The notes under the pieces: model-generated
Database searches by the model: none
Told to the model about the DNA's origin: nothing
The model's input: only the letters and a program-made list of their open reading frames with translations
Position numbers and translations under genes: made by a program
Shown: positions 37,590 to 53,859 of the stretch, piece after piece
How the letters are laid out: each line of letters begins with the position of its first letter
Position numbering within the stretch: position 1 is the first letter of the stretch
DNA from: Pseudomonadota bacterium
Lineage (GTDB): Bacteria > Desulfobacterota > Desulfovibrionia > Desulfovibrionales > Desulfomicrobiaceae
Assembly: GCA_018902545.1 (NCBI GenBank)
Contig: JAHIQM010000007.1
Coordinates: forward strand, 1 to 64,000
Reading direction: 5' to 3'
Length of the DNA stretch: 64,000 bases

Positions 37590-39698
37590 CTACTCCAGAT
37601 TGCCCGCAAGCGTTGCCGTATTGCCAAAAGGATCCATCAATTCCAGCCGCCACGCATCACCCTTGCGCACTTCCCGTTGGGGGACGAACACGCTGGGCCT
37701 GGAGGCAAAGCGTTCGAAGATATGCTTATCCACCCCGTTGCCCTGATCTTCAATGCGGCCAAGGCGCATCTGGGCTAGGCGGGGCTCATGGGCGCTCGAT
37801 CCCAAATCCGCCATGACCAGATACCCTTTGCCGCGCTCCGTATCGCGCACCGGTTCCACACGCACATTTTTTTCCCAGGTCAGGCCGGTCAGGGGTCCCG
37901 GCTTTTGCGGCGCCAAAGGCAAGAGGTACAGGGGGTCGCCAACAAAACTGGTGATCCAGCCCATGTGCACCTGGTTGCTGAGCAGTATTTCGCCAACAGG
38001 GCGGCCTTCACGCAGGGCCGGATAGAACACCGCTTCGTCCCAAAAACTGTGGCTGTGTATGTGGGGCGTCTGGCGCGGGTCAACGCGAGCCGAACCGGCC
38101 GTGACCGTCACCCCTTGCCTCAAGAATTCGTGGAATCGCGAATCCTTCACGTTCCAGCCCTGATTCGACTGCACAAAGGCCGCTATCCCTCCGGGAAGAA
38201 ACACGGGGCCGGTGTTGAAAAAACCGCAGTCCGGGGCCAGCTTGAAAAGATCCAGCCGGACCTTGCCTTTGGGGTGTTGAAACAGATGCCGGTATCCCTT
38301 GTCCCAAAACGGCTCGGCCGGAGTCCGGGCGCCGATCTCTCCGGTGCGTTCCGGGGTTTGTAAGAGAGGCACGTCCGCAAGTACGCCCATCTGCGGGCCG
38401 GCATATCTGGATGCATAGACGGCCCTGTCCACCAGTTCCATGGCTTCAAGGGGAGTTTGCCCGTCGACGCGCATCGCGAAAAAGAGATGGCGATCCGGGC
38501 GCAGGGCTCGCCGCGCGGAGGTAAACCGGGGGGAACTCTCCCCTGCCTTGTTTCCGCCTTTGCGGTAGGCCGCTGGATGCACGAACGGATTTATTTCCAC
38601 CCCCTGCAGCGGCATGGACAATCGAGTACGGAGCAAAATGTTCGCGAATGCACCTGAGGTTGAAGACGCCGCCGGAGCAAAACGCATCGGCTGAACCTCA
38701 TTATGGTGCAGACTTTTATAATCGTAGTACATGAGCTGGAGCCGCTGGCAAAAATCGATCTTGGAACCATAATCGCGCAACTCCAGGCCGACCCCGGTGG
38801 CAATGCCGTACGGAGCCGAAACGGTTCGGGGCAGGCCATGACAAACAACAATGTACAGGACATGATCTTTCAGCAGAGTTCCGTCCGGTCTGGCATTGGA
38901 GGGATCTTCCAGGAATGCCTTGATCGGAGTCTCCACAAAATCCAGATAATTCTGATCGTCACGAATCCCGTCGAGACCCGTGGAACTCCAGGACGCCTGC
39001 TGAATGTCCTTGTACTCGGCGCGCCACTCCTGGACATCGCCCTGAACATTCGCGCACCGGGCCTTGGCCGTAAACGGCCCCGCCAAAATGAGCCCGCCCA
39101 GAGCCCTGATCTGCCAATCTCCGTCATGCCGGACCCGCACCTTGTCCGGATAAAGACTCGAACCATTCTCGACCAGCACGAAACGTGCGCGGTTTGAGCG
39201 GTCGTCAGACTCTACCTCAAGTTTGAGCGTGCCAAGATCCCACGCAACCTTGGACTTGGGCAACACCACCTCCACCATGCGGCTGTCCCGCATCTCGCAA
39301 GCGGGAACGGGGCGTTTTGAATCCTGGGACTGATACACGACCCCGCAACTGTTGTCGTGGCTGCGTTCCTCCAGGTGATCGTTCGAAAGGAGGCTTTTTG
39401 ACGACCGCGCAGCCGTCAGTCCCAGCAGATAGGGCCTCTCCCCGGTGACGGGGTCAGTATGCATCCGCGCATAATGCTCGGCGACTGCCAGGGAATCCTG
39501 CGCCGAGGAGATAAGAGGATGCCGTGCTTGTAAGTCCGCATTGTAAAGAACGAGGACCTGCGAGGGCGAGATGCCTTCCGGGGCCTTGGCAATGGCCAAA
39601 CCCCGGCAGGAAATAAGCGCGCACAGGAAAAGCAGGAGCGAGGCTGACAGGCGGCATGAAATTCCGCGTACGGCAAACCTACACGTGTCCGTGTTCAT
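37590..39698 (-). CDS. TIGR03790-like exported protein of exosortase-bearing genomes
   Basis: A 702-residue secreted protein with an N-terminal signal (residues about 1-37, LSASLLLFLCALISCRGLA). PSQVLVLYNADLQARHPLI, DSLAVAEHYARM and the C-terminal SNQVHMGWITSFVGDPLYLL follow the pattern of the TIGR03790 family, known almost only from genomes with PEP-CTERM/exosortase systems. Those proteins have a gingipain-like outline, and the HGLPRTV motif may hold a catalytic His. The function is unknown. Its position directly between epsI and prsK supports the assignment. Confidence 0.6.
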   Translation of the reverse strand: MNTDTCRFAVRGISCRLSASLLLFLCALISCRGLAIAKAPEGISPSQVLVLYNADLQARHPLISSAQDSLAVAEHYARMHTDPVTGERPYLLGLTAARSSKSLLSNDHLEERSHDNSCGVVYQSQDSKRPVPACEMRDSRMVEVVLPKSKVAWDLGTLKLEVESDDRSNRARFVLVENGSSLYPDKVRVRHDGDWQIRALGGLILAGPFTAKARCANVQGDVQEWRAEYKDIQQASWSSTGLDGIRDDQNYLDFVETPIKAFLEDPSNARPDGTLLKDHVLYIVVCHGLPRTVSAPYGIATGVGLELRDYGSKIDFCQRLQLMYYDYKSLHHNEVQPMRFAPAASSTSGAFANILLRTRLSMPLQGVEINPFVHPAAYRKGGNKAGESSPRFTSARRALRPDRHLFFAMRVDGQTPLEAMELVDRAVYASRYAGPQMGVLADVPLLQTPERTGEIGARTPAEPFWDKGYRHLFQHPKGKVRLDLFKLAPDCGFFNTGPVFLPGGIAAFVQSNQGWNVKDSRFHEFLRQGVTVTAGSARVDPRQTPHIHSHSFWDEAVFYPALREGRPVGEILLSNQVHMGWITSFVGDPLYLLPLAPQKPGPLTGLTWEKNVRVEPVRDTERGKGYLVMADLGSSAHEPRLAQMRLGRIEDQGNGVDKHIFERFASRPSVFVPQREVRKGDAWRLELMDPFGNTATLAGNLE

Positions 39699-39716: not shown

Positions 39717-40349
39717 CTAGTTTGGCAAAAAATCGCGAATGAGCGGATAGAAATCCCGCAGAAAATCTTCGATCTGTTTCTCCGCCGCTTCCAGACTGCC
39801 GCCCCCCTGCACGGAAATTCTCATGAAGCTCTGATCCCGGCGACGATGGAACATGGAGCCCGTTATCTCGGCAATCTTCAGGGAAAACTCGTTGGACATG
39901 GTCTTGCCGCGCATGGAGAACCAGTAGTAGATGACCTCCCGGTTGTTGCCCATGGCGTACACGGCCTGCGCCAGGTTGACCGCCTCCCCGCCCAGATCCA
40001 AAGTGGTGTGTCTGGAGGACATTTCCGTCCAACCGCCGCCCGGCAGGCAGTGCTTGGGCGAGTGTATCCTGCCCGCATCAGGGCCGCCGTTGAAAAAACT
40101 CAAATACATGTCGACGCTCGCTCCGTCCTCCCTGGCATAGCGCCGGGAGAGGTAATCGGTCGGCATGAGCACCTTGATGATGTTTTCGCCAAGGCTTGCC
40201 TGCCCGGTCATGCGCCAGCCCGCATGGCTGACCGGAAATTCCCCGAAGGTCCGCGCCAGGGGCACCTCAAGATCGCGGTGAAAGGCCATGTATGTTCCGG
40301 CCCCAGCCAGAAGAAGCATGATGAAAATAAAACGGAAACGAATATTCAT
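39717..40349 (-). CDS. epsI: EpsI/exosortase-associated protein
   Basis: A 210-residue exported protein with one N-terminal membrane helix (FIFIMLLLAGAGTYMAF). The EpsI core is recognisable: YLSFFNGGPDAGRIHSPKHCLPGGGWTE, then NREVIYYWFSMRGKTMSNE. EpsI is encoded beside or fused to exosortase and is needed for exopolysaccharide production in Methylobacillus-type loci. ATG 40349 overlaps the exosortase stop by 4 bp; a GTG at 40355 is the alternative. Here EpsI is a separate protein rather than the fused XrtA form. Confidence 0.9.
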   Translation of the reverse strand: MNIRFRFIFIMLLLAGAGTYMAFHRDLEVPLARTFGEFPVSHAGWRMTGQASLGENIIKVLMPTDYLSRRYAREDGASVDMYLSFFNGGPDAGRIHSPKHCLPGGGWTEMSSRHTTLDLGGEAVNLAQAVYAMGNNREVIYYWFSMRGKTMSNEFSLKIAEITGSMFHRRRDQSFMRISVQGGGSLEAAEKQIEDFLRDFYPLIRDFLPN

Positions 40350-41179
40350 GACCACCTCTTGAGTGCCGCACCCAGGGCCACGAATATGACCACAGCTGCG
40401 AAAAAGACGAAGAATCCGGCGAATTCGTGGAAAAAGCCCTCGGCTGCCGCCGCCCCGAAATGTTGGGCCAGGACCCCCGTGGCGATGACCCGCAGGCAGT
40501 TGGTAAAGACTGCAATAGGCAGCGTGGAACCGATGAGCACCACCCGGTCCCGGACCGAGGAGTGCAGCACGAAGGCATATGCCGTGCCCAGGGCCAGAAG
40601 GGACATGATGGAGCGCAGTCCGCTGCAGGCATCCGCCACTTCAAGGGTGATGTTCGGGAACATGAGAATGTTGCCTTCCTGCCAGATGACGATGCCCATG
40701 GCCTTCAAGGTCAGGACCGAGACCTTGGTCACAAAGAGCTTCAGCGGAAAGGCGGCGGCGTCATAGATAATGTAGGGGATCGGAATCATGAGCAGCAGGT
40801 AGGCCAAAGGGGCAAGCAGAATCCTGAATATCTTCCATCCCAGAATATAGAGCACCGAACCCGCGATGATGACCACCAGGGAGGCGCGCATGGTGAAGTA
40901 TTCCGTACTCAGCCAGCCGAAAAGAAGCATGACCAGCCCGAAGAGGATGAGGCCAAGGCCGGACACGGCAGGTTTGATCTCTGCCTCCATCAGATCGTCC
41001 CGGCGCATGTAGGCCAGATACCCGGCGATAAAGGGCACAAGAAAGCCGTGCGAATAATTGTCGTCGGCTGCCCACTGTCTGACCATGGGAACGACAATCG
41101 GCCAATAGATGACCCCCATGGCAACGGCCAGGAAAACAACCCAGATGATCAGATTTTTTTGATTCTTTAAGAGTTCCAT
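40346..41179 (-). CDS. Exosortase (polytopic membrane transpeptidase)
   Basis: A 277-residue protein with about eight membrane helices. Catalytic residues of the family are present: Cys185 in ADACSGLRS, Arg230 in FTNCLRVIATG and His251 in FFHEFAGFF. Exosortases cleave the C-terminal PEP-CTERM-type tail of exported proteins and are thought to link them to surface polysaccharide. The upstream gene is UDP-GlcNAc 2-epimerase and downstream is epsI. No substrate with such a tail is encoded in the window, so targets must lie elsewhere. Confidence 0.93.
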   Translation of the reverse strand: MELLKNQKNLIIWVVFLAVAMGVIYWPIVVPMVRQWAADDNYSHGFLVPFIAGYLAYMRRDDLMEAEIKPAVSGLGLILFGLVMLLFGWLSTEYFTMRASLVVIIAGSVLYILGWKIFRILLAPLAYLLLMIPIPYIIYDAAAFPLKLFVTKVSVLTLKAMGIVIWQEGNILMFPNITLEVADACSGLRSIMSLLALGTAYAFVLHSSVRDRVVLIGSTLPIAVFTNCLRVIATGVLAQHFGAAAAEGFFHEFAGFFVFFAAVVIFVALGAALKRWS

Positions 41180-41302: not shown

Positions 41303-42448
41303 TCACCTCTTTAACAACTCCTCAACGCACCTCACAGCAGCCTTACCGTCCCACAAATCTGGTCGCTGCGGGACTCTGCCAATCTGCAGCGCTATCAAAA
41401 ATTCGTTACGAATCCGTTCCACATTATTTCCTACCAGCACGCTGGCACCGCCGTTTTCCTTCAGAGTCACAGGTCGTTCAGTGTTCCAACGCAGGGTAAG
41501 GCATGGAGTACCAAGGACACAGCACTCCTCCTGCAGGCCGCCGCTGTCGGTCAGCATGATGGTCGCCTGCATGTTCAAGCGCAACATCTCATGGTAGCCT
41601 ATGGGGTGCAGCAGAACCACATTCGAGCAGGTCACTGCCTTGGACCATAGGCCGAAGGTTTGCAGCATCTTCCGAGTTCGTGGGTGAATGGGCCAGATTA
41701 CGGGCATCTGGACTGCGACCTCGTCAGTCAGGAAGTTAAGGATGGGCTCCAGAACCTCCTGCCGGTCCACATTGGAAGGGCGGTGCATGGTCACAACAGC
41801 GTAGCCACCCTCCAAGGCCGGACACCCGACCCTTGGCATGAGCAGGTTTTCTCGCAGAATGGCCGCCGAATCGAGGTTAGCCGCTTTGTCACGGTTGGCC
41901 TCCAGGGTATCAATCATAATGTTGCCCACGAAGCCTACCTTCTCATCGGGTACCCCCTCGCGACGAAGATTCTCGCTTGAGAGTCGATCTGGCGTAAGAA
42001 GCAGATCGCTCAAGCGGTCGGTGACCAGACGGTTGATCTCTTCGGGCATGGTTATGTCGCCACTGCGCAAGCCAGCCTCAATATGACAGACCTTGACGCA
42101 GAGCTTCTTGGCCGTAACCGAGCAGGCCAGGGTGGCGTTGACGTCCCCTACCACCACGACCCAGTCGGGATTCTCCTGCAGAAGCACCTTCTCGAAGGCA
42201 ATCATGGTTTGCCCGACCTGCTCGGCATGGGAACCGGACCCGATCTCGAGGTTGATATCCGGGTCCGGGATAGACAAACTACGGAAGAAGCCCTCGGACA
42301 TGCGCATGTCATAGTGTTGGCCGGTGTGCACAAGGATGTGCCTGACAGGCTTGTCAGGATGATTTGTATTGTGGACCTCAAGGGCCTTCACAAAGGGCGC
42401 GATTTTCATGAAATTGGGCCGCGCACCCACCACTGAAATGATTTTCAT
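41303..42448 (-). CDS. wecB: UDP-N-acetylglucosamine 2-epimerase (non-hydrolysing)
   Basis: A 381-residue GT-B-fold enzyme interconverting UDP-GlcNAc and UDP-ManNAc. Signatures include SVVGARPNFMKIAPF, HTGQHYDMRMSEGFF, EAGLRSGDITMPEEINR, and TDSGGLQEECCVLGTPCLTLR. It would provide ManNAc (or derived ManNAcA) for the exopolysaccharide repeat unit. ATG 42448 is preferred, with GGAAGA upstream. A 123-bp gap with a CACGG/CCGTG hairpin separates it from exosortase. Confidence 0.93.
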   Translation of the reverse strand: MKIISVVGARPNFMKIAPFVKALEVHNTNHPDKPVRHILVHTGQHYDMRMSEGFFRSLSIPDPDINLEIGSGSHAEQVGQTMIAFEKVLLQENPDWVVVVGDVNATLACSVTAKKLCVKVCHIEAGLRSGDITMPEEINRLVTDRLSDLLLTPDRLSSENLRREGVPDEKVGFVGNIMIDTLEANRDKAANLDSAAILRENLLMPRVGCPALEGGYAVVTMHRPSNVDRQEVLEPILNFLTDEVAVQMPVIWPIHPRTRKMLQTFGLWSKAVTCSNVVLLHPIGYHEMLRLNMQATIMLTDSGGLQEECCVLGTPCLTLRWNTERPVTLKENGGASVLVGNNVERIRNEFLIALQIGRVPQRPDLWDGKAAVRCVEELLKR

Positions 42449-42577
42449 CCGTATCTTCCATTGCACATTTTGACAAAAATTATCGAGTTGTTCTCAGGAA
42501 TTAATGCATTGATTTCGCAAAGCATGGTGACAACTGCAATCACAAATAACTTACATAATCATACGTTCACTTCAGCA

Positions 42578-43519
42578 TCAAGACTCATCCCCTCCCTGAT
42601 TCAGAGGCTTCTTCTTTGGCCAAAAGGGGATCAGACGTCGGGAGTACAGGAGAAAACGCAAACCGCCTGGCAGAAAAAGGCTGCGCAGATGGCAGGTTAG
42701 GGCCTCGCCATACTGACCAGCCTGGAGGGCCCTGTCGGACCGGCAATGCCAGTCCATGCTCATCCGCTCCCTGATGAGTGTGGCGATGTCCTGTGGCGGA
42801 TTTAATAGCAACATCCGTTCATACAGGCGCATGTGACTTTCCATGTATGCAACGGTCTTAGAAGCCGACATCGGAGTGTCATAATATCTGAATGTCGTTC
42901 TATCCAAAAAAAGTATTTTCTTTTTAGCCAATGCAATTTTGTATGCCAGCCAAGTCCATTCTATATTTAAAAAATGATCTTCAAAATAATCAATGGATAT
43001 TCGATCAGTTTTATATAATGCATTACCGCTGTTAAGCCAATTAAATTTAAAAAGATACTTTAATGGGTCATTACTGGCTTCTCTGTAATTTCTATACATT
43101 ATAATATCATATTTATTTTTATTATGATAACCGTTAGTCACTATCATGTCAGCATCAGAGACTTCATGCAACGCATTTAGCTTTATATCTGTAGCACCCT
43201 CAAGATACTCGTCATCATCGTCAAGTGTTGAAAAATAAGGTGTATCGACCAATTTCCTGGCAATAAGAACTGCGTTTGCCAGGGAGGGCAGTTGATCATA
43301 GACGTACGTTATATCGGATTGTAATTGTAGCCAGTCAACCACATTTTTATCACATGAATTTCCATTCGCAACGACAATGATCTTTACCTGATTTGATGAA
43401 GATTTCCTGATGCTATTTACAGCCCTCTTTATTAAATGAAACCTTTCTCTTTTCGCGGCTGAAGGCATCAATACTGTAACAAAGCAACAAGGATCGTCAA
43501 TTTTAGAATTATTATCCAT
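42578..43519 (-). CDS. Family 2 glycosyltransferase
   Basis: A 313-residue GT-A enzyme. The N-terminal Rossmann part (VTVLMPSAAKRERFHLIKRA; IIVVANGNS) leads to the metal-binding acidic cluster FSTLDDDDEYLEG. No membrane helices are present. It is in an AT-rich stretch (about 42.5-46.0 kb) that differs from its neighbours, a common sign of recently acquired polysaccharide genes. The sugar and acceptor are unknown. Confidence 0.85.
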   Translation of the reverse strand: MDNNSKIDDPCCFVTVLMPSAAKRERFHLIKRAVNSIRKSSSNQVKIIVVANGNSCDKNVVDWLQLQSDITYVYDQLPSLANAVLIARKLVDTPYFSTLDDDDEYLEGATDIKLNALHEVSDADMIVTNGYHNKNKYDIIMYRNYREASNDPLKYLFKFNWLNSGNALYKTDRISIDYFEDHFLNIEWTWLAYKIALAKKKILFLDRTTFRYYDTPMSASKTVAYMESHMRLYERMLLLNPPQDIATLIRERMSMDWHCRSDRALQAGQYGEALTCHLRSLFLPGGLRFLLYSRRLIPFWPKKKPLNQGGDES

Positions 43520-43718: not shown

Positions 43719-45185
43719 CTATTTTCGTAATGTAAAAATAAATTTATTTATCAGATATGACTCTGCGCCGTCTGGCTTTTTGCACAAAAACCAAATAAAT
43801 AATACAGTTAAAACATAAGCAAAAATTCCACACACTATTTTATATATCAATAGAATTGGAAGAGGATAAACCATATATTTATCAATATTATATAGTAATA
43901 CAGCCATAGCGAGCACACCAAGAATCGGTCTGTATGCATTTCTCGCGAAATCACCGACAGCCACCACCGGAAATACAATGCGAACAAGAACGAAAGTGGA
44001 AAGCGCACCGACCACTGCAACAATCAGACGGAACCACGCTATCTCAATAGCATCACTCCCGGACGCTACGAACATCGCCAGTGCTGCGAAGGCCCCGACC
44101 TGAATGAACGAGACCATGACGTTTAGCCGCACATAACCGAGCACCAGCATTACGTATCCACTGCTCGTCGTGATGGCTTCGAAAAAACCGATCCACGCCA
44201 GAATCTGCACGAATGGAATTGCAGCCAGCCATTTGCTTCCGAGAAGAAGAGGCACTGCTTCCTGAGCGACCAGCGCCAGGCCGACCGCTGCCGGCATGAC
44301 GATCAGAGTTTGCAAACCCTGCGCGAGCAGAAATAGCCTTTTCAATTCAGGCCAATTATTCTGGTGTCTTGAAAAAGCGGGGAAAAGAACACGATTAAAA
44401 GGCGCTAGCAATTCGCTGGAGGGCATGACGGAAATGTGTGCGGCCAAAGTGTATGATCCGAGCACTGAAGAAGAAAACCAACGGCCGACAAAAAAATTCT
44501 GCAGATTTTCCTTGAGATAGTTCCCGACGTTCTTGAGCAACATCCACTGCGAAATAGAAAGAATCGGCCTCCATTCCTTAAGCGAGAGAGAAGGACGCAT
44601 CGGATGGAGCACATAGCTCAACACCGTACCGATCAGCGCTGTGGCTAGGGAACCGAATACCAGGGCCCAGTAGGAACGAAGCGTCCACGCCAGAACAACG
44701 GTAACGAGAAAGCCCAAAATTCTCCTCGTAACGAGGTAACGAAATTCAGCGTCAAACTGCATGTTCTTGTGGAAATCTACAAGGCCAATATTTTGCAATC
44801 CCGTAAGAAATGGCATGAATGCCAAGAAGTACAAAGGCTCGAGTGACCTCTCGGCATTGAAATATTCGGCAATAAAGGGGCTCGTCAAAAGCAGTATTGA
44901 TGTGACGAGAAAACCCTGCAGTACCTTGATAGTCCATGCCGTATCATAGTGGGCCTTGGTCGCGTCCTGAATCTTGATAAGGGGTACCTGGACTCCCATA
45001 TTTAAAAATACGTTGGTCAGGCCAACAGAAAGAGTGGCTATGGCCACGATGCCGAAATCTTCTGGAGTTAGAATTCGTGCAAGAATAAAGGTACTGACCA
45101 GTCCGACAAGACGGTCAACCCATCTGATGCTGACTGTAAAAAAAGTGCCCTTGATTATACTATTTCCAGTATTTTTTGCTTTCAT
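43719..45185 (-). CDS. Wzx-type polysaccharide flippase (MOP superfamily)
   Basis: A 488-residue membrane protein with about 12-14 helices, starting KGTFFTVSIRWVDRLVGLVS and continuing with FILARILTPEDFGIVAIATL, which is characteristic of WzxC/RfbX polysaccharide exporters. It would flip lipid-linked repeat units across the inner membrane for polymerisation by the Wzy-like protein encoded further upstream. It overlaps the QueC-like gene's end by 4 bp and is AT-rich. Confidence 0.9.
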   Translation of the reverse strand: MKAKNTGNSIIKGTFFTVSIRWVDRLVGLVSTFILARILTPEDFGIVAIATLSVGLTNVFLNMGVQVPLIKIQDATKAHYDTAWTIKVLQGFLVTSILLLTSPFIAEYFNAERSLEPLYFLAFMPFLTGLQNIGLVDFHKNMQFDAEFRYLVTRRILGFLVTVVLAWTLRSYWALVFGSLATALIGTVLSYVLHPMRPSLSLKEWRPILSISQWMLLKNVGNYLKENLQNFFVGRWFSSSVLGSYTLAAHISVMPSSELLAPFNRVLFPAFSRHQNNWPELKRLFLLAQGLQTLIVMPAAVGLALVAQEAVPLLLGSKWLAAIPFVQILAWIGFFEAITTSSGYVMLVLGYVRLNVMVSFIQVGAFAALAMFVASGSDAIEIAWFRLIVAVVGALSTFVLVRIVFPVVAVGDFARNAYRPILGVLAMAVLLYNIDKYMVYPLPILLIYKIVCGIFAYVLTVLFIWFLCKKPDGAESYLINKFIFTLRK

Positions 45186-45970
45186 GAAGGCCTATTTCTA
45201 ACGAACGCACGAACATTTTTTAATATGGGGTATAATGATGAATCTTTATTAATGTATTTTCTTACATCAAAAAAATTGTCGAGATAATATGCGATATTCC
45301 CATAAATGCCCAATCTGTATCCGAGCCCCTTGTGTTTTGTGGACTTGCATGGATTACAGGTCCCACACGGAAGGGAGGAAACTTTCGGTCTGTGACAAAA
45401 CCACGACAATTCAAGAATATCAGCGAAACCATTCTCCCTGGCTATGCGCAGCATATCGAGCTTGGAAACGTCCTTGACGGCGAACAGGAAATAGCGAAAC
45501 AAATCATGTTCGGGCGTACCGGCGTACTCATCGTCGACAACATGGCCGTTTTCCGTCTTCTTCAGAAAAGGTCTGACTACGGAATGACAGCCAGTCCGGG
45601 AATCGCTTTGCTCGATGACAAGTTCCAAGTCTTTAATGCCGGTCTGCTTTGCCCACATGGCCAACCACTCGTACTGCCCTCCAAGTTTGTTCCGCAGTCG
45701 GAAAATGCTATCCGTAATCTGCCGATCCTCTTTGATATCAGCTTTATCAAACAATATTGCCGGCAATAACAACTTATTGAGCTGAGGATATCGTTGTTGC
45801 AACATTTTTTTGATATTACTCATCGCTTTAAGCTCTTGAACAAGAGACCATCTGAATGGATCTACAATATAATATGGCTGGACAGAATTTTTATTAACAA
45901 TAAGAAGCTGCAGAACTCTGAACGTTGAATCCCATCCTCCTGTCCATAATACTTTATGTACATTATTCAT
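45182..45970 (-). CDS. QueC-like PP-loop ATPase in exopolysaccharide locus
   Basis: A 262-residue protein of the adenine-nucleotide alpha-hydrolase fold. The PP-loop is TGGWDS (residues 10-15). Near the C-terminus, C192-x9-C202-x2-C205-x2-C208 followed by KGLGYRL matches the zinc site of QueC (C-x8-C-x2-C-x2-C then NGL). QueC turns a carboxylate into an amide and then a nitrile in deazaguanine synthesis. No other queuosine gene is near, so it probably acts on a sugar acid or protein. It overlaps the flippase start by 4 bp. ATG 45970 has TTGGAG upstream. Confidence 0.75.
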   Translation of the reverse strand: MNNVHKVLWTGGWDSTFRVLQLLIVNKNSVQPYYIVDPFRWSLVQELKAMSNIKKMLQQRYPQLNKLLLPAILFDKADIKEDRQITDSIFRLRNKLGGQYEWLAMWAKQTGIKDLELVIEQSDSRTGCHSVVRPFLKKTENGHVVDDEYAGTPEHDLFRYFLFAVKDVSKLDMLRIARENGFADILELSWFCHRPKVSSLPCGTCNPCKSTKHKGLGYRLGIYGNIAYYLDNFFDVRKYINKDSSLYPILKNVRAFVRNRPS

Positions 45971-45984
45971 ATTAACTCCAATTA

Positions 45985-48339
45985 TTATTTTAAAGGCAAA
46001 TATGGAGCAGTCCACACACCTGTTCCAAATGATGTAACTATTATTTCCTTAAAATTCATGGGATTGAATGAGATACTTTGAATAGGCGCACCTGGGTATG
46101 AAGCATACGGTTTGAACGATCTGCCAAAATTATCACTGTAATATAACCCGTTGTGGACATCACCGACATATATCAATTTCGGGTCTTCAGGATGAACAGC
46201 AACCGACATGAGGTGATATCCGGCTTTGTCCTTTTTGACATCGCGAGGAAAAATCCGTTCCCAGGAAACACCGCCGTCGATGGTTCTGTACAAGCCACCT
46301 TGACGCCAGCGCCGCAGAGGGGATGCGGCCGTCACATAAATGATGTTCTCGTCTTTTGGATCGAAGCAGAATGCGGTCGATTGCCAGACTAAATTGTGCC
46401 CCCCGCTAATGTCCGCCCACGTTTCTCCGCCATCCGTGGATCGCCAGAGACCGCCCGGAATCTTATACGATATTTCCGCAGAGGACCCCCGCAAGCCGGT
46501 GATGAGGCAGTACACATTCCCGCTGACAGGATGCACCCTGATACGGTAGATATGGAGATTGCGCATGCCCGACGGTCGGTGCAGGTGACCGAGACCCTCC
46601 GACTTGCGCGTCCATGTCCTGCCCCCATCTTCCGACTTGTACACGCCCGCATGGTCATCGTCTGCCTCGCCGAATACTCCTGCGTAGAGCACCCTTCTGT
46701 CCGCGGGGGATTTCGGATCCAAAGCAACAGTGGTGCAAACTTGGGCCGGAAGAGCATTCTCCGCATCTCTGCGGTATGGCACCGACCAGTTAATTCCATA
46801 ATCCTCAGAAAGAACCACACCACCTTTCGTATGAATGGGCCGCTTAGGATTGATGGGTCGCAGAAAATTATCATACGGGATATCGTGCAGTTGGCTGGCA
46901 GCTGCATATAAGCGGCCGGGCACAGCAGGGTCCAACGACACATCGTAAAATGTGTTTGTCCAGGGTGAGCCCTTGGCAGACCATACCCAACTCCTTCCCC
47001 GATCGACGGAATAGGCAAAACCAATATCCGTATACGATATATATTGTCTGGTCGGATCATGAGGATCAAAGTGAAACCCCCAAGCGCTCGTTACCTCAAG
47101 ACCTATGGAGGTATTGAACTTCTCACCTCCATTCTGCATCGTATGCTCGGACATGATCTGATACCAGGTATCTCCTTGGTCATCAGACCTGTATATATCG
47201 CCTTGCGTTGTCAGAATAAGGGTATTGCTGTTCATTGGATCGACAGTAAGCCCATTTCTTGTGATGTAGTAACTCCATCGCAGTTTTGTCTGAACCCATG
47301 AGACGTCGACGTTCGCCTTTTCACTAAAAATGACTCCTGAACCCGCCATGCGAAAAACAGATTTCCACGTCTTCCCGGAATCTTCAGACTTGAATAACTC
47401 CCTGTTCTGCCGTTTGCCTGTTTGAGCGACGTACATGCAACGCGTCTGACCGGGCGGGATTACCAACACGGTCTCATCGCGATACGGCGTTCTGATGATG
47501 TTCCATTTTTTTCCGCCATCTGAAGACAAAATCAGACCGGAAGGTTCCGTCGAGAGCAAGAGGGTTTCGCCATCCGGCGCGGCAGAAGCAGCCATGGCCC
47601 TTACTTCTCCGTAATCACCCAAGGTCATGCCCTGTGCCCAGGAATTTCCCCGATCTGCACTGGATATAAGCTGGCCTGACCCTACGACGGCGTAGACGGC
47701 GCGGCCCGAGTCCGCCAGCAAGGATATGGGCCCGTCATTGACCTTCCGCCAAGTAACCGCGTGATTGTCTGTCCGCCATAGACCGTCCTCGGTCCCAACC
47801 AAGAGCACGTCAGGCGTTCCGGGCAAGGCGCACACGGCCTGAATCTTCGATTTTCCCCAGACAGTGGCGTCCAAGGCGAACCAGTTCAGACCTTTATCCG
47901 TGCTATAGCGCAGCTCATGGGTTCTGCCCCGGGGCCAGTAAATTTTCTCCCGAAAAAACGCGGGCTTCGTGGAATAGTGCATACGGTAGAGACCATTGCC
48001 GCGATGAATGAGCTCCCAGTTCCTGCCGCCATTTTCGGATCGGAACGCGGCGCCCATGTCAGTGGCAAGAAGGACGAGGCCAGGATCGAAGGGTGAAAAT
48101 GATGGGTTGTACGTCCCGCCCGCTCCTCCCAGTCCCAAGGGCGACCAGCCGGCATCGGAGCTGCGTGGAAGAGGTGGAAATTTTTCGGGCGCCGTAAATG
48201 GATCCTCTTTTTCGCCTTGCACGACAGTCCCTACAGGGACCGTTCGGTTGTCCTCCTCAGCCCAAACCAACGTTGCTGGGGCGAGACATGCTAAGCACAG
48301 CAGGATCAGGATACCGGATAAACGGAGTATGGCTGTCAT
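45985..48339 (-). CDS. Secreted Asp-box beta-propeller protein (GH74/VPS10-like)
   Basis: A 784-residue exported protein with a Sec signal (LSGILILLCLACLAPATLVWA). At least thirteen Asp-box motifs (S/T-x-D/N-x-G-x-x-W/F) are spread along its length, for example SENGGRNW, STDKGLNW, SSDGGKKW, SEDSGKTW, SEDGGRTW, STDGGETW and TIDGGVSW. That count and length suit two seven-bladed propellers as in GH74 glycosidases. In this locus it may trim, cut or bind the exopolysaccharide. Catalytic residues were not assigned. It overlaps the upstream gene by 4 bp. Confidence 0.82.
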   Translation of the reverse strand: MTAILRLSGILILLCLACLAPATLVWAEEDNRTVPVGTVVQGEKEDPFTAPEKFPPLPRSSDAGWSPLGLGGAGGTYNPSFSPFDPGLVLLATDMGAAFRSENGGRNWELIHRGNGLYRMHYSTKPAFFREKIYWPRGRTHELRYSTDKGLNWFALDATVWGKSKIQAVCALPGTPDVLLVGTEDGLWRTDNHAVTWRKVNDGPISLLADSGRAVYAVVGSGQLISSADRGNSWAQGMTLGDYGEVRAMAASAAPDGETLLLSTEPSGLILSSDGGKKWNIIRTPYRDETVLVIPPGQTRCMYVAQTGKRQNRELFKSEDSGKTWKSVFRMAGSGVIFSEKANVDVSWVQTKLRWSYYITRNGLTVDPMNSNTLILTTQGDIYRSDDQGDTWYQIMSEHTMQNGGEKFNTSIGLEVTSAWGFHFDPHDPTRQYISYTDIGFAYSVDRGRSWVWSAKGSPWTNTFYDVSLDPAVPGRLYAAASQLHDIPYDNFLRPINPKRPIHTKGGVVLSEDYGINWSVPYRRDAENALPAQVCTTVALDPKSPADRRVLYAGVFGEADDDHAGVYKSEDGGRTWTRKSEGLGHLHRPSGMRNLHIYRIRVHPVSGNVYCLITGLRGSSAEISYKIPGGLWRSTDGGETWADISGGHNLVWQSTAFCFDPKDENIIYVTAASPLRRWRQGGLYRTIDGGVSWERIFPRDVKKDKAGYHLMSVAVHPEDPKLIYVGDVHNGLYYSDNFGRSFKPYASYPGAPIQSISFNPMNFKEIIVTSFGTGVWTAPYLPLK

Positions 48340-50171
48340 GGCTGCACCGTGGGACCGTCGAAAAGTGACAGAACCATCTCTGCGGTCACGATTTTGCCGA
48401 TCACGTAATGATCGGACGCCTGCAATCTTTCCCGCTGCAACAACGCCTTCACCCTGTCCGCTGACATGTACTCGTAAATCTTCAACGTTTCGATGTTCCG
48501 GCAGAAATCCTCCAGGAGATGGTCCCTGACCCAGTATTTCCAGTCCTCCAGCGGAACCTCCGGACGTGACGGCAACCCCAGCATCCGGCCGATTTTGTCA
48601 GGTCCGTGGCGGAGCACTTTGTGAAACAAGTACGGAATTTTCCTGCCTGGTGCGTAATGCGCGGGGAGCAACCCGTGCACAGGGAGATTCCTGAAGACGT
48701 CATGGCGGCTCAACACATGCCCAAAGAGGCTGTGGCGCTTCCAGTACGGAAATTCGTCGTGAATGAACGGGGTGAGGGTCAGAGTGCTGAGATTGCTGTG
48801 ATACGACAGGAGGCGGATGTCGGAGTCCCAGTATGGAGAGGCCATGGCTACGTAGTTGTCGGCCAGGGCAAGTTCTCCGCCGAAATACTTGGTCGCGAGT
48901 TCGTAATGCGCAAACGTGAGCTGCCGGTCCGAGAGCCGTCTGGAAGACCATGACAAGGCGCTTTCCAGATGATGCGCCGAGGCTTCGAAATTCCCGAGGG
49001 CCGCGTCCCTGTTCCTGAACAGATCGAGGAATTTGCTATCCAGCGGGCGATATGCCGGATCCTTGACCATCCCGATTGCACTAACGGAAAAGGTATGCGG
49101 AGTCGCGCCCGAACTGCGGAAGAAATGGTCGGCTGAAATACCGGTAATGACCGACTGCAGGTCGCACCCGGCCAACCGTTCATACGCGAAGGTCAAGGAG
49201 GAGCGCAGGGCGTTGATCGTCCCGCCGGAATACTTGAGGGTTTTCTCGGCCAGCCCGTACAGTCCGCCCAGAACGTTCGTATCGATTTCCAGGGCATGGT
49301 GAACAAGCTCCAGCGCGGCCGCAATCTGCGCGCCCTCGTGCATGTCCGGGCAACCGGCGATGCCGTAAGTGTAGAGCTCGAGCTCGACATCCTTGGGCTT
49401 GAAGGAAATGGCCACCCTGGAGTCGAAGCCCGAGGTCACCGATGCGGCGTACCTCCCCTTGGACAGCGAATTGTAATACTTCGGAATCCGTTGGGCGAAG
49501 ACCTCGTACGTACGCTCCTTCATCTCCTGCTCCGGACATGAAGGGACATCTGCGGCATACGTCGGGGCATACCCCTCCATTACCTGCTTTCCGCCACCAC
49601 TGTTCGTCCGCAACACGCTGGCCGCCGGCATACGCAGCACGTTGCGAATCGGCGTGGTATTTCCCACAGGAAAATTGAAGAAGACGAAATCCGACAGCCA
49701 CTTCTCCTCGAACTCCCTGCGCCCGAGACACCTGAAGAAGGTCGCCAGTGTCGTCGAACAGATCAGCTGATCGCTGCCATCATGGTAGAAGAGGGGTTGC
49801 TGCGAACACCTGTCGGACACCATGCAGGTTTCGCCCGTATCCCGGAAATGAACACACAGCGCGAAGTGTGATTTGAGTTCCCGGAAAAATCCATATTTCC
49901 CGGAATCAAGGGCAGCGACGACATCGCGCCAGGGTACGGCCGCGTGATCCGCAAGGAAGCCGCAGTACCAGCCGCAGGCCCGACCATCGTCGAAAAACCT
50001 GTCCTCCCCGAGCCGACAGTTACTGACGAAGGATACGGCGGAGTACAAACGCTCTTCCGAGCACTCCCTTACGGCGAGTTTGCGAGCCATGTCGATGGAC
50101 TCCCTGGCTCCGGACAGGCGACCCTGCGCATCGACGCGGGATCCATTGGAAATGAACATGCAGCCGGGCAT
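48336..50171 (-). CDS. Asparagine-synthase-like protein lacking the N-terminal glutaminase Cys
   Basis: A 611-residue protein. Residues about 50-165 look like a degenerate class II glutamine amidotransferase domain (GWYCGFLADHAAV; MVSDRCSQQPLFYHDG), but no Cys2 follows the start Met (it begins MPGC). The synthetase half has the PP-loop SVTSGFDSRVAI (245-256). Exosortase loci often carry AsnB-like amidotransferases; here loss of the usual catalytic Cys recalls beta-lactam synthetase-like members that do not use glutamine. The substrate is unknown. The neighbouring QueC-like gene encodes a second PP-loop enzyme. Confidence 0.75.
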   Translation of the reverse strand: MPGCMFISNGSRVDAQGRLSGARESIDMARKLAVRECSEERLYSAVSFVSNCRLGEDRFFDDGRACGWYCGFLADHAAVPWRDVVAALDSGKYGFFRELKSHFALCVHFRDTGETCMVSDRCSQQPLFYHDGSDQLICSTTLATFFRCLGRREFEEKWLSDFVFFNFPVGNTTPIRNVLRMPAASVLRTNSGGGKQVMEGYAPTYAADVPSCPEQEMKERTYEVFAQRIPKYYNSLSKGRYAASVTSGFDSRVAISFKPKDVELELYTYGIAGCPDMHEGAQIAAALELVHHALEIDTNVLGGLYGLAEKTLKYSGGTINALRSSLTFAYERLAGCDLQSVITGISADHFFRSSGATPHTFSVSAIGMVKDPAYRPLDSKFLDLFRNRDAALGNFEASAHHLESALSWSSRRLSDRQLTFAHYELATKYFGGELALADNYVAMASPYWDSDIRLLSYHSNLSTLTLTPFIHDEFPYWKRHSLFGHVLSRHDVFRNLPVHGLLPAHYAPGRKIPYLFHKVLRHGPDKIGRMLGLPSRPEVPLEDWKYWVRDHLLEDFCRNIETLKIYEYMSADRVKALLQRERLQASDHYVIGKIVTAEMVLSLFDGPTVQP

Positions 50172-50208: not shown

Positions 50209-51384
50209 CTATCCGACACCACAACTCAGTTTGACCAGTTTCAGACACCTCCTCACCAGTCGGCTCGACACACTCCCCTGGTATTCACGCAGGAAATGGC
50301 AGAGGTACCTTCCGTTCGTGTACTCGACCCGCCCCTTGCGCACCACATGCGGACACCCGATCCGTTCCACCCTGACGTGGTCTCCATCCATGAGTGGAAC
50401 TCCCCGCTTGCGTTCCCGCGAAGCCAGGGTCGTGGCCAGATAGTACTGTTTGGAAATCTCCACCGACCCGGACTCGTACCCCCCTCCTGGCCAGCAGAGC
50501 AGGTTCACCTCCTTGGAGAGGCGGGATTCCAGTATCCTTTTGGACTCGCCCAGTTCCCAATGCAGTCGCCGACGATATTCGTCTTCGGTTTCGGTAGATT
50601 CGTGCAGTTGGTTGCCGAACCTGAATTCCCCGGCAAGAACATGGAGCTCGGATCGCCAACCGGGCTGGTCGAAGAATGCGTGCCCTCTGGAAGCAACATG
50701 CGCCTCTAGGTGCCTGGACAACCGCTCATCCGGGAAGAACCGCCGGACTTCCAGGGACTTTCCGTGCGCATAGACCGGGCTGCCCAGCCGCGACGGACGC
50801 GACGCCGGATCAGCGCTCAGGTACGCCCACTTCTCTTCCGGATTCTCGTTCCAATCCATCCAGACATATGGATCCCCGGGATGGCGAAAGTCGACGATCT
50901 CCGGTCCGCTGAAATACCAGGTGTGCGTCATGCCGTGAGACTGAATATCCATGACCCCTTCCTGCTCCATGACCCGCATCTCGGCCCAGGATAAAAAACC
51001 GTGGGGTGTCAGGTCTTCGATTCGAGCCCTGCCTTCCCATACGTCATCGAGATTCAGGCGCGGATCCGGCGCGGGGTCGACGAACTCGGGGTTGACGAAG
51101 ATCGTGCCCTTGAAGCCATATTTCCTGAGAATGGGGTAGGCGAAAACCCAATTATCGAGATAACCGTCATCGAAGTGAAGGAAGACACTACGCTCGGGGA
51201 GTTCGGCGCCGAACCTGACATGGGAGTAATACTCCTTGAAATCTATCGGCACGAAACCCTTGCTTCTGAGACAACGAATATGATCCTCGAAAAGCCCGTA
51301 CGGTATGGTCAAGAAATCCCAAATCCAGTCCTTCTTCGGTAACCCCACGGAATGGTACATGACGACGGGAATGTTTCGACGCAT
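50209..51384 (-). CDS. Polysaccharide deacetylase (carbohydrate esterase 4, NodB homology)
   Basis: A 391-residue enzyme. NodB motif 1 is FLHFDDGYLDN, motif 2 is IQSHGMTHTW, and the N-terminus has VMYHSVG. At 391 residues it is longer than the roughly 280-residue deacetylases usual in XrtA loci and has an extra region (about 200-290). It would remove N- or O-acetyl groups from the polysaccharide or its precursors. ATG 51384 overlaps the upstream stop; the frame also allows GTG 51387. Confidence 0.85.
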   Translation of the reverse strand: MRRNIPVVMYHSVGLPKKDWIWDFLTIPYGLFEDHIRCLRSKGFVPIDFKEYYSHVRFGAELPERSVFLHFDDGYLDNWVFAYPILRKYGFKGTIFVNPEFVDPAPDPRLNLDDVWEGRARIEDLTPHGFLSWAEMRVMEQEGVMDIQSHGMTHTWYFSGPEIVDFRHPGDPYVWMDWNENPEEKWAYLSADPASRPSRLGSPVYAHGKSLEVRRFFPDERLSRHLEAHVASRGHAFFDQPGWRSELHVLAGEFRFGNQLHESTETEDEYRRRLHWELGESKRILESRLSKEVNLLCWPGGGYESGSVEISKQYYLATTLASRERKRGVPLMDGDHVRVERIGCPHVVRKGRVEYTNGRYLCHFLREYQGSVSSRLVRRCLKLVKLSCGVG

Positions 51385-52715
51385 CACGGCCTCACGTCCG
51401 AAATGAATATGCGGTGCTTGCCGCCGACGGTCTGAGGGAACGATTCGACGTAGTTCACCCGCATCACAACCCTGGGAACAGGCAGGGCCGAAAGATTCGC
51501 GTTGATGGCCTCGATTTTTCCCCTGTCGGCCTCATCGAACGCGGTCGAGCGGATAATGTTCAGGTCGATGTTCACGAGATCCCGTTGATGGAACTGGAAA
51601 TTCTTGATGCCCCGTATGCCTGCGACCTGCCTGACCAGCAGTGTGCCGTGCAATATATGCCCGCCTTCGCAGACGAAACGGTCGTAGAGACGCCCTATAT
51701 TCATCCGCATGAGGGGAAAACCCCTCCCGCACGCACAGACAGAATTTACCGGCTGCGCATAATCTCCGATTTCATAACGCAAAAATGGCATCGCATAACT
51801 ATTTAATGGCGTGACGACGACCTTCTTCGCTTCTCCTGGCGCTTCAGGATCATCGACAAATTCGACATATGACGAATGCGTCAGGAGATGCATACCACCA
51901 TGAGCACATTCAGAGGCTATTCCAGGGCATTCTCTACTTCCATACTGGTCATATACTTTGCATTGAAACGCTTTATCCAGAATACTTCTTTGATCATCAA
52001 GCAACTGCTCGGCAGAAGTCTGGATTCCTTTCACATTATTCAAGCGCACATTTTTATTCACTATATGATGCGCAAAACCGGATATGACTGATGGATATCC
52101 GTAAATGAACGCATTTCCGGATCTCTGGATTTCAGCGATCCACGAATTAAAAATATCTTCGTTGTATTTGTATGCATTCAGAATAACGGTAGTTGCCAGA
52201 CTCTCTTTGATTTTTCCAAGCAGAGACTTTTTTTTGGAGAAATCTTTCGGATTTCCCCAGATCGAAAACACACGTTCACCTTCGCGCCATCCCGCCATCT
52301 TCAGGCTGAGCATCAGGTTCGCGCACATCTGCTCGTAGACATCCATCTCCTGGAAGAACTGCAATGGTTCACCGGTCGAGCCACCTGTGGAGTTGCCACG
52401 CAGCACGTTGACATCGAAACGTGAGGAAATCAGCGCATTCCGGTTGCGCTTGATGATGTCCTTGGTCAGGCAGGGCAGCTTCGCATAATCGGCGCGGGAC
52501 TTGATCTCGTCGGGGTGGACACCCGCCTCCCTGAACATTTCGCGATAGAACGGGACTGTCTCGAAGGCATGGCGCAGCAGCGCCCTCAGTCTGCCGAACT
52601 GGTCGGCCTCGAGTTCCTCTCGCGAACGCCACTGAAGAGCCTCGTACTCCATCAGGTACGCATACCTTCTGGAGCCCTGAACCCTCGCTGCAAATCTCTG
52701 CACAAGGCTACGCAC
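51384..52715 (-). CDS. CapK/phenylacetate-CoA-ligase-like adenylate-forming protein
   Basis: A 443-residue member of the adenylate-forming fold. A conserved core is visible: RGNSTGGSTGEPLQFFQ (P-loop), IQTSAEQLLDDQ, DQYGSRECPGIASEC (A5-like), and RYEIGDYAQP. CapK-type proteins accompany polysaccharide genes in many bacteria, with an unproven role, perhaps activating an acyl group for decoration. The start is taken as GTG 52715, which lies 6 bp after GGAG; GTG 52721 is inside that site. The middle (about 51.8-52.25 kb) is AT-richer. Confidence 0.82.
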   Translation of the reverse strand: MRSLVQRFAARVQGSRRYAYLMEYEALQWRSREELEADQFGRLRALLRHAFETVPFYREMFREAGVHPDEIKSRADYAKLPCLTKDIIKRNRNALISSRFDVNVLRGNSTGGSTGEPLQFFQEMDVYEQMCANLMLSLKMAGWREGERVFSIWGNPKDFSKKKSLLGKIKESLATTVILNAYKYNEDIFNSWIAEIQRSGNAFIYGYPSVISGFAHHIVNKNVRLNNVKGIQTSAEQLLDDQRSILDKAFQCKVYDQYGSRECPGIASECAHGGMHLLTHSSYVEFVDDPEAPGEAKKVVVTPLNSYAMPFLRYEIGDYAQPVNSVCACGRGFPLMRMNIGRLYDRFVCEGGHILHGTLLVRQVAGIRGIKNFQFHQRDLVNIDLNIIRSTAFDEADRGKIEAINANLSALPVPRVVMRVNYVESFPQTVGGKHRIFISDVRP

Positions 52716-53820
52716 GCGCACCTCCGACCGATGTAAAAAGGCGCATGTAAATGCCGATCATGGCCTGGTCGCTGAAATTACCGGCGGCCTTGCGCACGGC
52801 ACGCTCCCCCAGTCGAGAGCGACCGTCCGGGTCTCGGACGAGACCTAGTATCGCGGCAGCCAGGGCGGCAGCGTCTTCGGGCGGAACGACGATCCCGTCC
52901 ACGCCGTTGTCAATGATCTCCCTGACGCCGCCGACGTCCGTGGCCACCACCGGCCTGCCGCAAGCCATGGCTTCGACAATGGAGACGGGAAAACCCTCCC
53001 GGCGCGAAGGCAGGACAAAGATGTCCATGCCGGTGAGCAGATGCGGGATGTCGCTTCGCTTGCCCGTCATCTCCACGGCATCGTCCAGCCCCAGAGAGGA
53101 CACCAGAGACTCGATCTCCTGCCGCAATTCACCGTCGCCCACCATCAGCAGGCGAACGTCTGGCACTTCCTTTCGAACCGTGGCGAAAGCGCGCAGCAGG
53201 TTCCCGTGATCCTTGGCCTCGGTCAGCCTGGCCACTGTCCCGATCACCACGCCCTCGCTTTTCTGTCTGCGCTCATGAGCGGACTGCGCGAACCGGGACA
53301 GGTCGATCCCGTTGGGTATCACCTCGATTCGGTCAGGCCTGAGGCCGACGACGTCGATCATGAAGCCGCGCAGGTTTCGCGACACGCAGACCATCTTCCC
53401 GAACAGACGGCCATGCAGTCTGGCCATGCATCGCAGCCTCGCGTGCCGGCCAAGGGAGTGCCGGGCGTGCTCGGTGTAGACGACCGCAACACCGGCCAAC
53501 AATGCCGCGGGCATGACGTACTGAAGGAGATAGGCACCATGCACCTGCGCCACGGCAACCCTCCCCTGGCGGAAACGGCGGTATAGTTCCACCACCGTCC
53601 GCACCTTGCCCAGGCGGCGGGCATCCAACGAAAATGCACTGACGCCCCGCTCCGAAGCGACGTCGGACAACGGCCCCCCGGATCCGAACACTCCGCACAG
53701 ACTCACGGAATAACGCTCATCCTCCCGCAGCAGCGAGCAGATGTTCAGAGCCAGGCTTTCAGCGCCCCCGAACTCGAGAGCGAAAATGACCTGCATGACG
53801 TGCTTTGTGTTTAATCTCAT
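52708..53820 (-). CDS. Family 4 glycosyltransferase
   Basis: A 370-residue GT-B enzyme. MQVIFALEFGGAESLALNIC marks the acceptor domain, VVIGTVARLTEAKDH the linker, and VLPSRREGFPVSIVEAMACG the retaining nucleotide-sugar site (E-x7-E). ATG 53820 has AGAGGAA upstream and is preferred over 53835. It overlaps the CapK-like gene. Confidence 0.92.
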   Translation of the reverse strand: MRLNTKHVMQVIFALEFGGAESLALNICSLLREDERYSVSLCGVFGSGGPLSDVASERGVSAFSLDARRLGKVRTVVELYRRFRQGRVAVAQVHGAYLLQYVMPAALLAGVAVVYTEHARHSLGRHARLRCMARLHGRLFGKMVCVSRNLRGFMIDVVGLRPDRIEVIPNGIDLSRFAQSAHERRQKSEGVVIGTVARLTEAKDHGNLLRAFATVRKEVPDVRLLMVGDGELRQEIESLVSSLGLDDAVEMTGKRSDIPHLLTGMDIFVLPSRREGFPVSIVEAMACGRPVVATDVGGVREIIDNGVDGIVVPPEDAAALAAAILGLVRDPDGRSRLGERAVRKAAGNFSDQAMIGIYMRLFTSVGGARA

Positions 53821-53859
53821 GATTCCTCTGCCCATTTTGCGGATTGAGGGCCGCAGTAC

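Follow-up and report, generated by a model that had tools for sequence, protein, structure and literature searches.

A QueC-like enzyme family apart from queuosine synthesis that recurs in the glycan loci of unrelated bacteria

The QueC-like gene and its locus

The window, a stretch of 64,000 bp at the start of contig JAHIQM010000007.1 from a bacterium of the Desulfomicrobiaceae (assembly GCA_018902545.1), carries on its minus strand an ORF for a QueC-like protein of 262 amino acids, which starts with an ATG at position 45970, preceded by GGAG, and stops at 45182; an ORF check found these coordinates to be exact. The PP-loop and the C-x9-C-x2-C-x2-C zinc pattern that the original prediction had reported were both read in this ORF. 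The PP-loop, TGGWDST, has a Thr in the place of the first Ser of SGGxDS, and the zinc motif consists of C192, C202, C205 and C208, in the sequence C-x9-CGTCNPC; the spacing published for QueC is x8 (passages of PMC13329287). The following features were assigned in and around the gene.

39717..40355, minus strand: EpsI/DUF3485 protein (Pfam and NCBIfam profile matches)
40346..41179, minus strand: exosortase (Pfam Exosortase_EpsH; TIGR03109 (XrtA) 214.8 bits, cut-off 208)
41303..42466, minus strand: UDP-GlcNAc 2-epimerase of the WecB type (TIGR00236, 275 bits, over cut-off)
42578..43519, minus strand: family 2 glycosyltransferase (Pfam Glycos_transf_2; G+C 41%)
43719..45185, minus strand: Wzx-type flippase (Pfam Polysacc_synt_3, E 5e-79; ATGA overlap with the QueC-like stop codon)
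45182..45970, minus strand: QueC-like PP-loop enzyme, 262 aa (ORF, motifs, Pfam, AlphaFold2 model)
45347..45397, minus strand: zinc motif C-x9-C-x2-C-x2-C, residues 192-208 (four Cys in 36/36 relatives)
45923..45943, minus strand: PP-loop TGGWDST, residues 10-16 (by motif; T/S-G/S-G-x-D-S kept across the family)
45985..48339, minus strand: secreted Vps10/BNR-type propeller, 784 aa (Pfam Sortilin-Vps10 and BNR; signal peptide by eye)
48336..50171, minus strand: AsnB-like protein lacking the N-terminal glutaminase Cys and proposed as a partner (TIGR01536 and GATase_7 match weakly, below cut-off)
50209..51387, minus strand: polysaccharide deacetylase (Pfam Polysacc_deac_1)
51384..52721, minus strand: PaaK-like adenylate-forming enzyme (NCBIfam DVU1553/PaaK, below cut-off)
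52708..53835, minus strand: GT4-type glycosyltransferase (by eye rather than by Pfam scan; recovered as a GT4 seed in the marker survey)

The QueC-like gene had been placed by the original prediction between a flippase and a secreted propeller and away from queuosine genes, and this placement holds: no queuosine gene was found among the nine neighbours scanned with Pfam and NCBIfam models. The TGA of the QueC-like gene and the ATG of wzx share the sequence ATGA. The G+C content is 42% for the QueC-like gene, 46% for the flippase gene and 41% for the GT2 gene, with 58% for the whole window, and based on these low values the three genes look like an imported block. In relatives the AsnB-like gene directly adjoins the QueC-like gene, but in the window the 784-aa Vps10/BNR propeller (45985-48339) is inserted between the two. 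Adjoining EpsI is a 702-aa secreted-looking protein (37590-39698) with no Pfam match at E≤0.01, homologs of which occupy the same place in three congeners. Five PEP-CTERM matches over the cut-off were found in the genome, three of them on the window's contig. This contig has no UDP-sugar dehydrogenase gene, the genome's two being located on other contigs.

Superfamily membership and relation to queuosine synthesis

The window protein is an enzyme of the QueC superfamily (PF06508-like PP-loop enzymes), as indicated by its PP-loop, its Rossmann fold and its profile match. The Pfam QueC model PF06508 matches residues 84-210 with an E-value of 0.001 (19 bits, cut-off 22), and at E≤0.01 it recovers 25 of the 29 aligned family members. 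The QueC equivalog TIGR00364 scores 11.2 bits (cut-off 150.3) and is the only NCBIfam model matching at E≤1. A profile built from 29 relatives placed two QueCs first among the PDB chains, with E-values of 0.001-0.002, and these were the sole chains under E 0.01; phmmer with the single window protein returned no PDB chain at E≤10. The AlphaFold2 model (pLDDT 92.3) has as its closest solved folds, ranked by VIA Z, Cap9 (12.1), YcfA (10.3), QueC 3bl5 (10.1) and QatC (9.7), with LarE (9.0) as a further structural neighbour. The match with Cap9 (Foldseek E 1.7e-4; 164 aligned residues, rmsd 3.3) is a likeness between a predicted model and a solved fold, and as such it shows no function. The proximity of YcfA and LarE would be in keeping with a different reaction of PP-loop enzymes, for instance the transfer of sulfur to a small molecule, but this is improbable in view of the QueC-type four-Cys zinc motif in all 36 relatives and of the sequence profile, which brings only the two QueCs under E 0.01.

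A tree of 51 proteins was divided by one branch, with support values of 100/100, into the 36 relatives on one side and 15 true QueCs, drawn from the same genome set, on the other. On sequence grounds the relatives form a clade of their own within the QueC superfamily, with its own invariant residues, W9, Y34, R40, E46, Q99, W190 and P195, as read from a 29-row alignment built without the near-duplicates L028, L029, L035, L038, L049, L058 and L061, without the partial or broken sequences L044 (broken frame), L050, L053 and L054, and without L059, L062 and L063. With canonical QueC (PF06508 cluster 1, TIGR00364) they have in common the PP-loop, the zinc motif with four Cys (36/36, in the window protein as the x9 variant), the conserved Lys (K170, a Lys in 33/36) and the fold. 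They differ in other motifs: SGGxDS occurs in three of the 36 relatives and in 15/15 canonical QueCs, the window protein having TGG; the CDG-binding motif YPDC, the Tyr and Asp of which are CDG-recognition residues according to passages of PMC13279940, is absent from 36/36 ([YF]xDC in 0/36 versus 14/15); and VPxRN with its essential Arg was detected by pattern in 0/36 versus 13/15, the alignment of the Arg column being uncertain; two alignments placed the column of E. coli R99 differently. The Tyr following the first zinc Cys, which in E. coli QueC is Y189 and, like the Tyr of YPDC, essential for preQ0 formation (passages of PMC13329287), is present in 15/15 canonical QueCs and in 0/36 relatives, where His (32, including the window protein), Phe (2) or Trp (2) takes its place.

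The genome from which the window comes has matches to queD, queE and queC together on another contig (C15:261068-262711); the true queC, at C15:262097, scores 207 bits and comes directly after queE-like and PTPS (queD) matches. The genome therefore does not depend on the QueC-like gene as its only queC, and in the neighbourhoods examined the homologs do not lie mainly beside queD/queE, two outcomes that leave standing the original prediction of a role apart from queuosine. A QueC match above 100 bits is missing in 17 of the 36 other genomes holding a relative, many of which are drafts. Two genomes of one contig each, G015 from the same genus and G029, have no detectable queC and no QueE match at E≤1e-5, using a QueE model that does match G000, G001 and G006. 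Both nevertheless carry a QueC-like relative, so the QueC-like enzyme need not use CDG. Genome G015 has one PTPS gene rather than two and three of its congeners keep queC and queE, an apparent loss of preQ0 synthesis. In three Bacteroidota genomes (G152, G173 and G174) QueE-like and PTPS matches were found without a strong QueC; there, presence and absence leave a queC-substitute role possible, and the case against it is made by the motifs alone. These three genomes, together with the weak PF06508 match of the window protein, are what could speak for a second preQ0 synthase or queuosine enzyme. Such a role is extremely unlikely given the true queC in the own genome, the TIGR00364 score far under its cut-off, the lack of YPDC and VPxRN in 36/36, the separate clade and the relatives in G015 and G029. 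By any test made, the window protein is not a queuosine enzyme.

Two other branches of the superfamily act in defence, and the window protein was compared with both. Cap9 of type IV CBASS has the closest solved fold, but is a protein of approximately 185 aa that keeps YxDC, whereas the window protein is longer and lacks this motif, and no CD-NTase was present among the window neighbours scanned; membership of Cap9 was rejected. QatC resembles the relatives in having a divergent QueC domain without YPDC, for which a change of substrate away from CDG is suspected in passages of PMC13279940, but it is approximately 400 aa long, has the motif C(x)19CGxCxxRR and is accompanied by qatABD, none of which applies to the window protein. 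Membership of QatC was rejected on size, Cys motif and neighbours. An anti-phage function like that of QatC or Cap9 would draw on this precedent, on the PADLOC QatC model matching three of 29 relatives at E≤0.01, and on the patchy distribution and low G+C content of the gene. It is very unlikely, as the window protein gave no hit with any PADLOC model at E≤1, its neighbours are glycan genes, and the sizes and motifs of QatC and Cap9 are not those of the protein.

Distribution, gene neighbourhoods and ligase partners

The QueC-like family is patchily distributed over many divergent lineages. The gene is present in 8 of the 348 genomes of the class, and nine loci were collected from viral contigs and 32 from genome contigs, the latter belonging to Bacteroidota, Gammaproteobacteria, Clostridia and Coriobacteriaceae and, among others, to a planctomycete, a mycolicibacterium and a bathyarchaeote MAG. 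A scan of the genome contigs with the single window protein gave no close relatives, and tblastn gave no match among 72,556 plasmids and 50,697 phage records. Two Clostridia MAGs (L033 and L043) carry tandem QueC-like copies, and two copies are also found in G164 (nearby) and G163 (on separate contigs). In Mycolicibacterium iranicum the reading frame of the relative (L044:9900-10744) is interrupted close to the N-terminal end, by a frameshift or a sequencing error.

Neighbourhoods were scored with local profiles for glycosyltransferases, flippase, exosortase, UDP-sugar dehydrogenase, deacetylase and sugar-linked ATP-grasp proteins, in 29 cellular and seven viral loci, one per close group, with the true-queC loci of 15 genomes (approximately 16-20 kb each) as controls; the AsnB profile of the survey matched QueC itself via the PP-loop, also in 10/15 controls, and this category was left unused. 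Within 10 kb, at least one glycan or exosortase marker was found for 17/29 cellular loci, 1/7 viral loci and 1/15 true-queC loci (Fisher 0.0008, cellular versus control), the count being lowered by the short contigs L024, L033, L041, L043 and L053. Within 5 kb the numbers were 15/29, 1/7 and 0/15 (Fisher 0.0003, cellular versus control), and an exosortase was present in 5/29 cellular loci (the window, L016, L031, L039 and L042). The neighbourhood survey that the original prediction had called for thus bears out its link with glycan and exosortase genes. A Pfam scan of 141 neighbours from 28 loci (141 of 154; the 13 left out include wrong-frame ORFs and one relative itself) recovered GT1 eight times, GT2 eight times, exosortase and ATPgrasp_ST three times each and TupA twice; no paper on the model names ATPgrasp_ST and TupA was found in the open-licence literature. 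These data support a QueC-superfamily enzyme outside queuosine synthesis that recurs in the glycan loci of many unrelated bacteria.

No marker was present within 10 kb in 12 of the 29 cellular loci, some of them on short contigs, and outside the fused reading frame none was found in 6/7 viral loci. The marker-less cellular loci include those of Steroidobacter, where by eye the relatives have minCDE-like genes on one side and an ICL-like gene on the other, of Xanthomonadaceae, where by eye they are standalone, of an Oceanobacillus prophage-like region and of Coriobacteriaceae. The relatives at about position 10000 of L030, L055 and L056, which form one clade (99/96), are prophage-like and located between apparent tail and holin/lysis genes; PHROG 1550 names such prophage proteins QueC-like morons. 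Peptides of the Nif11 type with Cys-rich cores were noted at L052:7363-7626, L050:8573-8836, L051:9098-9298 and L051:9621-10163.

Loci of this kind are relevant to the reading that the QueC-like enzyme works on a peptide or protein in the manner of Cap9, with an exported protein or a RiPP precursor as possible targets. The solved fold nearest to the model is that of Cap9, the prophage-type relatives are beside apparent tail genes, and in three contigs of Coriobacteriaceae a pattern search detected Nif11-like peptides with a GG leader close to the gene, of which the peptide of L052 is encoded on the same strand, ends 40 bases upstream of the gene and matches Pfam Nif11 at 2.4e-8. For the prophage members and the Coriobacteriaceae peptides, a peptide or protein is a more fitting target than a glycan. 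However, the L052 peptide is the only one with a Pfam Nif11 match, that of L050 matching no family and those of L051 being recognized by pattern alone; the pattern found no precursor peptides outside the three contigs, the CDG-recognition motif of Cap9 is missing, and CDG is impossible as a donor in genomes without queE. A peptide or protein target, an exported protein included, is a possibility but an unlikely one.

Ligase genes form a further element of the neighbourhoods. The AsnB-like partner, the fusions with ATP-grasp and glycosyltransferase domains and the family members away from glycan loci did not figure in the original prediction. An AsnB-like gene of the type at 48336-50171 is present in 6 of the 348 class genomes, all six being among the eight QueC-like holders, and in each it is adjacent to the QueC-like gene or, in the window, one gene away. 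Three arrangements were observed: the window has the propeller between the two genes, in G001, G006 and G015 the AsnB-like gene directly precedes the QueC-like gene on the same strand, and in G346 and G353 the two are tail to tail. The N-terminal nucleophile Cys is missing from the six aligned AsnB-like proteins, which, with start codons as called, begin with MPG, MPA or MSS, and the neighbour in the window scores 10.5 bits against eps_aminotran_1 (cut-off 816.9). All six holders belong to one clade of the QueC-like tree, and L019 of the same clade has no partner; the link therefore represents one or two events, and the six genomes are not independent. At the genus level the overlap is 2/2 (p 0.002); in view of the relatedness of the genomes, no weight was given to a hypergeometric value of 1.2e-11. 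No AsnB-like protein of this kind was found in the other QueC-like holders, and in L037 a full AsnB gene starts a few bases downstream of the QueC-like gene. The 39 holder genomes contain 14 ATPgrasp_ST genes, three of them within 2 kb of the QueC-like gene, compared with 0.023 expected under random placement, an expectation that ignores the clustering of glycan genes. Among the viral loci, two single frames combine a QueC-like domain with an ATP-grasp domain, at scores near or below the Pfam cut-offs (L062:9056-10678, 23.6 bits, cut-off 23.2; L057:8855-10660, RimK 17.9 bits, below the cut-off of 21), and a third combines it with a GT2 domain (L059:9980-12139, 21.6 bits, below the cut-off of 23.3).

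A proposed role in amide formation on glycan building blocks

Superfamily chemistry consists of carboxylate activation with ATP followed by attack by ammonia (QueC) or by a protein amine (Cap9), as described in passages of PMC13279940. Since the parts for ATP and zinc are kept and the base-binding part is replaced, amide formation on another acid would be the simplest reading, and since AsnB-like genes, ATP-grasp ligases and glycan genes lie nearby, the target may be a glycan precursor bearing an acid or an aminoacyl group. The QueC-like enzyme probably adds a nitrogen group to a building block of a surface polymer. More specifically, we propose ATP-dependent activation and amide formation on a glycan building block, together with the AsnB-like partner in this organism, a reading to which we assign a probability of about 0.5. 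The 12/29 cellular and 6/7 viral loci lacking markers count against a glycan.

According to this proposal of amide formation on a glycan, the PP-loop would bind ATP and the zinc site would close the active site, as in QueC, with the family residues Y34, R40, E46, Q99, W190 and P195 presumably replacing those that bind CDG. ATP would then activate an oxygen of the glycan building block, most likely of a carboxylate, and ammonia or an amine would displace AMP to give an amide. In this organism and its kin the enzyme may act jointly with the AsnB-like synthetase that lost its glutaminase cysteine, and this step would take place before Wzx flips the lipid-linked unit. The locus may make the sugar to which an exosortase joins its proteins.

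The original prediction had gone further and envisaged a uronic acid of the polysaccharide being converted to an amide and then to a nitrile. Both steps are performed by QueC, uronamides made by the AsnB-type WbpS/WbqG are known from O antigens and from the type IX linking sugar (passages of PMC7468200), the same passages point to the joint occurrence of AsnB, deacetylase and exosortase in Desulfovibrio vulgaris, and two relatives have a UDP-sugar dehydrogenase beside or near them (L048, where it is approximately 20 bp downstream of the QueC-like gene, and L057). Within 10 kb, however, such a gene is present in only 1/29 cellular and 1/7 viral loci, and the dehydrogenases of the window's own genome are off-contig, which weakens the uronic acid as substrate and leaves its amidation as a possibility. 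Nothing supports the nitrile step: the position of Y189, essential for preQ0 in E. coli, is replaced in 36/36, and no report of nitrile sugars in bacterial surface polymers was found in the open-licence literature. The full route from uronic acid to nitrile is accordingly unlikely.

Known enzymes of surface polymers offer partial parallels to amide formation by the QueC-like enzyme. The WbpG-type N-sugar amidotransferases (cluster 5 in passages of PMC13329287) are PP-loop enzymes of O-antigen loci with the kind of job that is proposed for the QueC-like enzyme, but they are 300-400 aa long and have the motif CxxC(x)6CxC, whereas the Cys motif of the window protein is a different one and no model of this type matched the protein at E≤1. 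WbpS, WbqG and PGN_1234 perform ATP-dependent amidation of sugar acids, near deacetylase, Wzx and sortase/exosortase genes (passages of PMC7468200); the QueC-like protein is outside their AsnB family, and the AsnB-like neighbour at 48336-50171 lacks the glutaminase Cys. According to passages of PMC13329287, the 2026 survey of PF06508 covers the ten largest clusters, the WbpG type being the sole glycan-linked one, and the words polysaccharide, exosortase and glycosyltransferase are absent from its main text. Searches of the open-licence literature gave no paper describing a QueC-like family from polysaccharide loci; in a capsule paper (PMC8757827), the one passage naming queC is a row of an expression table.

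With its deacetylase, AsnB-like protein and exosortase, the window resembles the arrangement that was compared with the type IX linking-sugar pathway in passages of PMC7468200, and it is a speculation that the exosortase might use such a linking sugar here. Only tentatively, and with the odds well against it, can it be suggested that the QueC-like enzyme and the glutaminase-dead AsnB-like protein, as a pair of enzymes for amide formation, build an amino-acylated or amidated linking sugar that serves as the exosortase nucleophile for the C-terminus of exported proteins. If true, such a pair would give a bacterial counterpart to the linking sugar of type IX secretion, produced by QueC chemistry. 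The exosortase link, if it holds, would be relevant to a question regarded as open, that of the molecule to which exosortases couple proteins. One more clade, linked to glycan loci and with a changed pocket for the substrate, would add the chemistry of surface polymers to a superfamily of tRNA-base and phage-defence enzymes.
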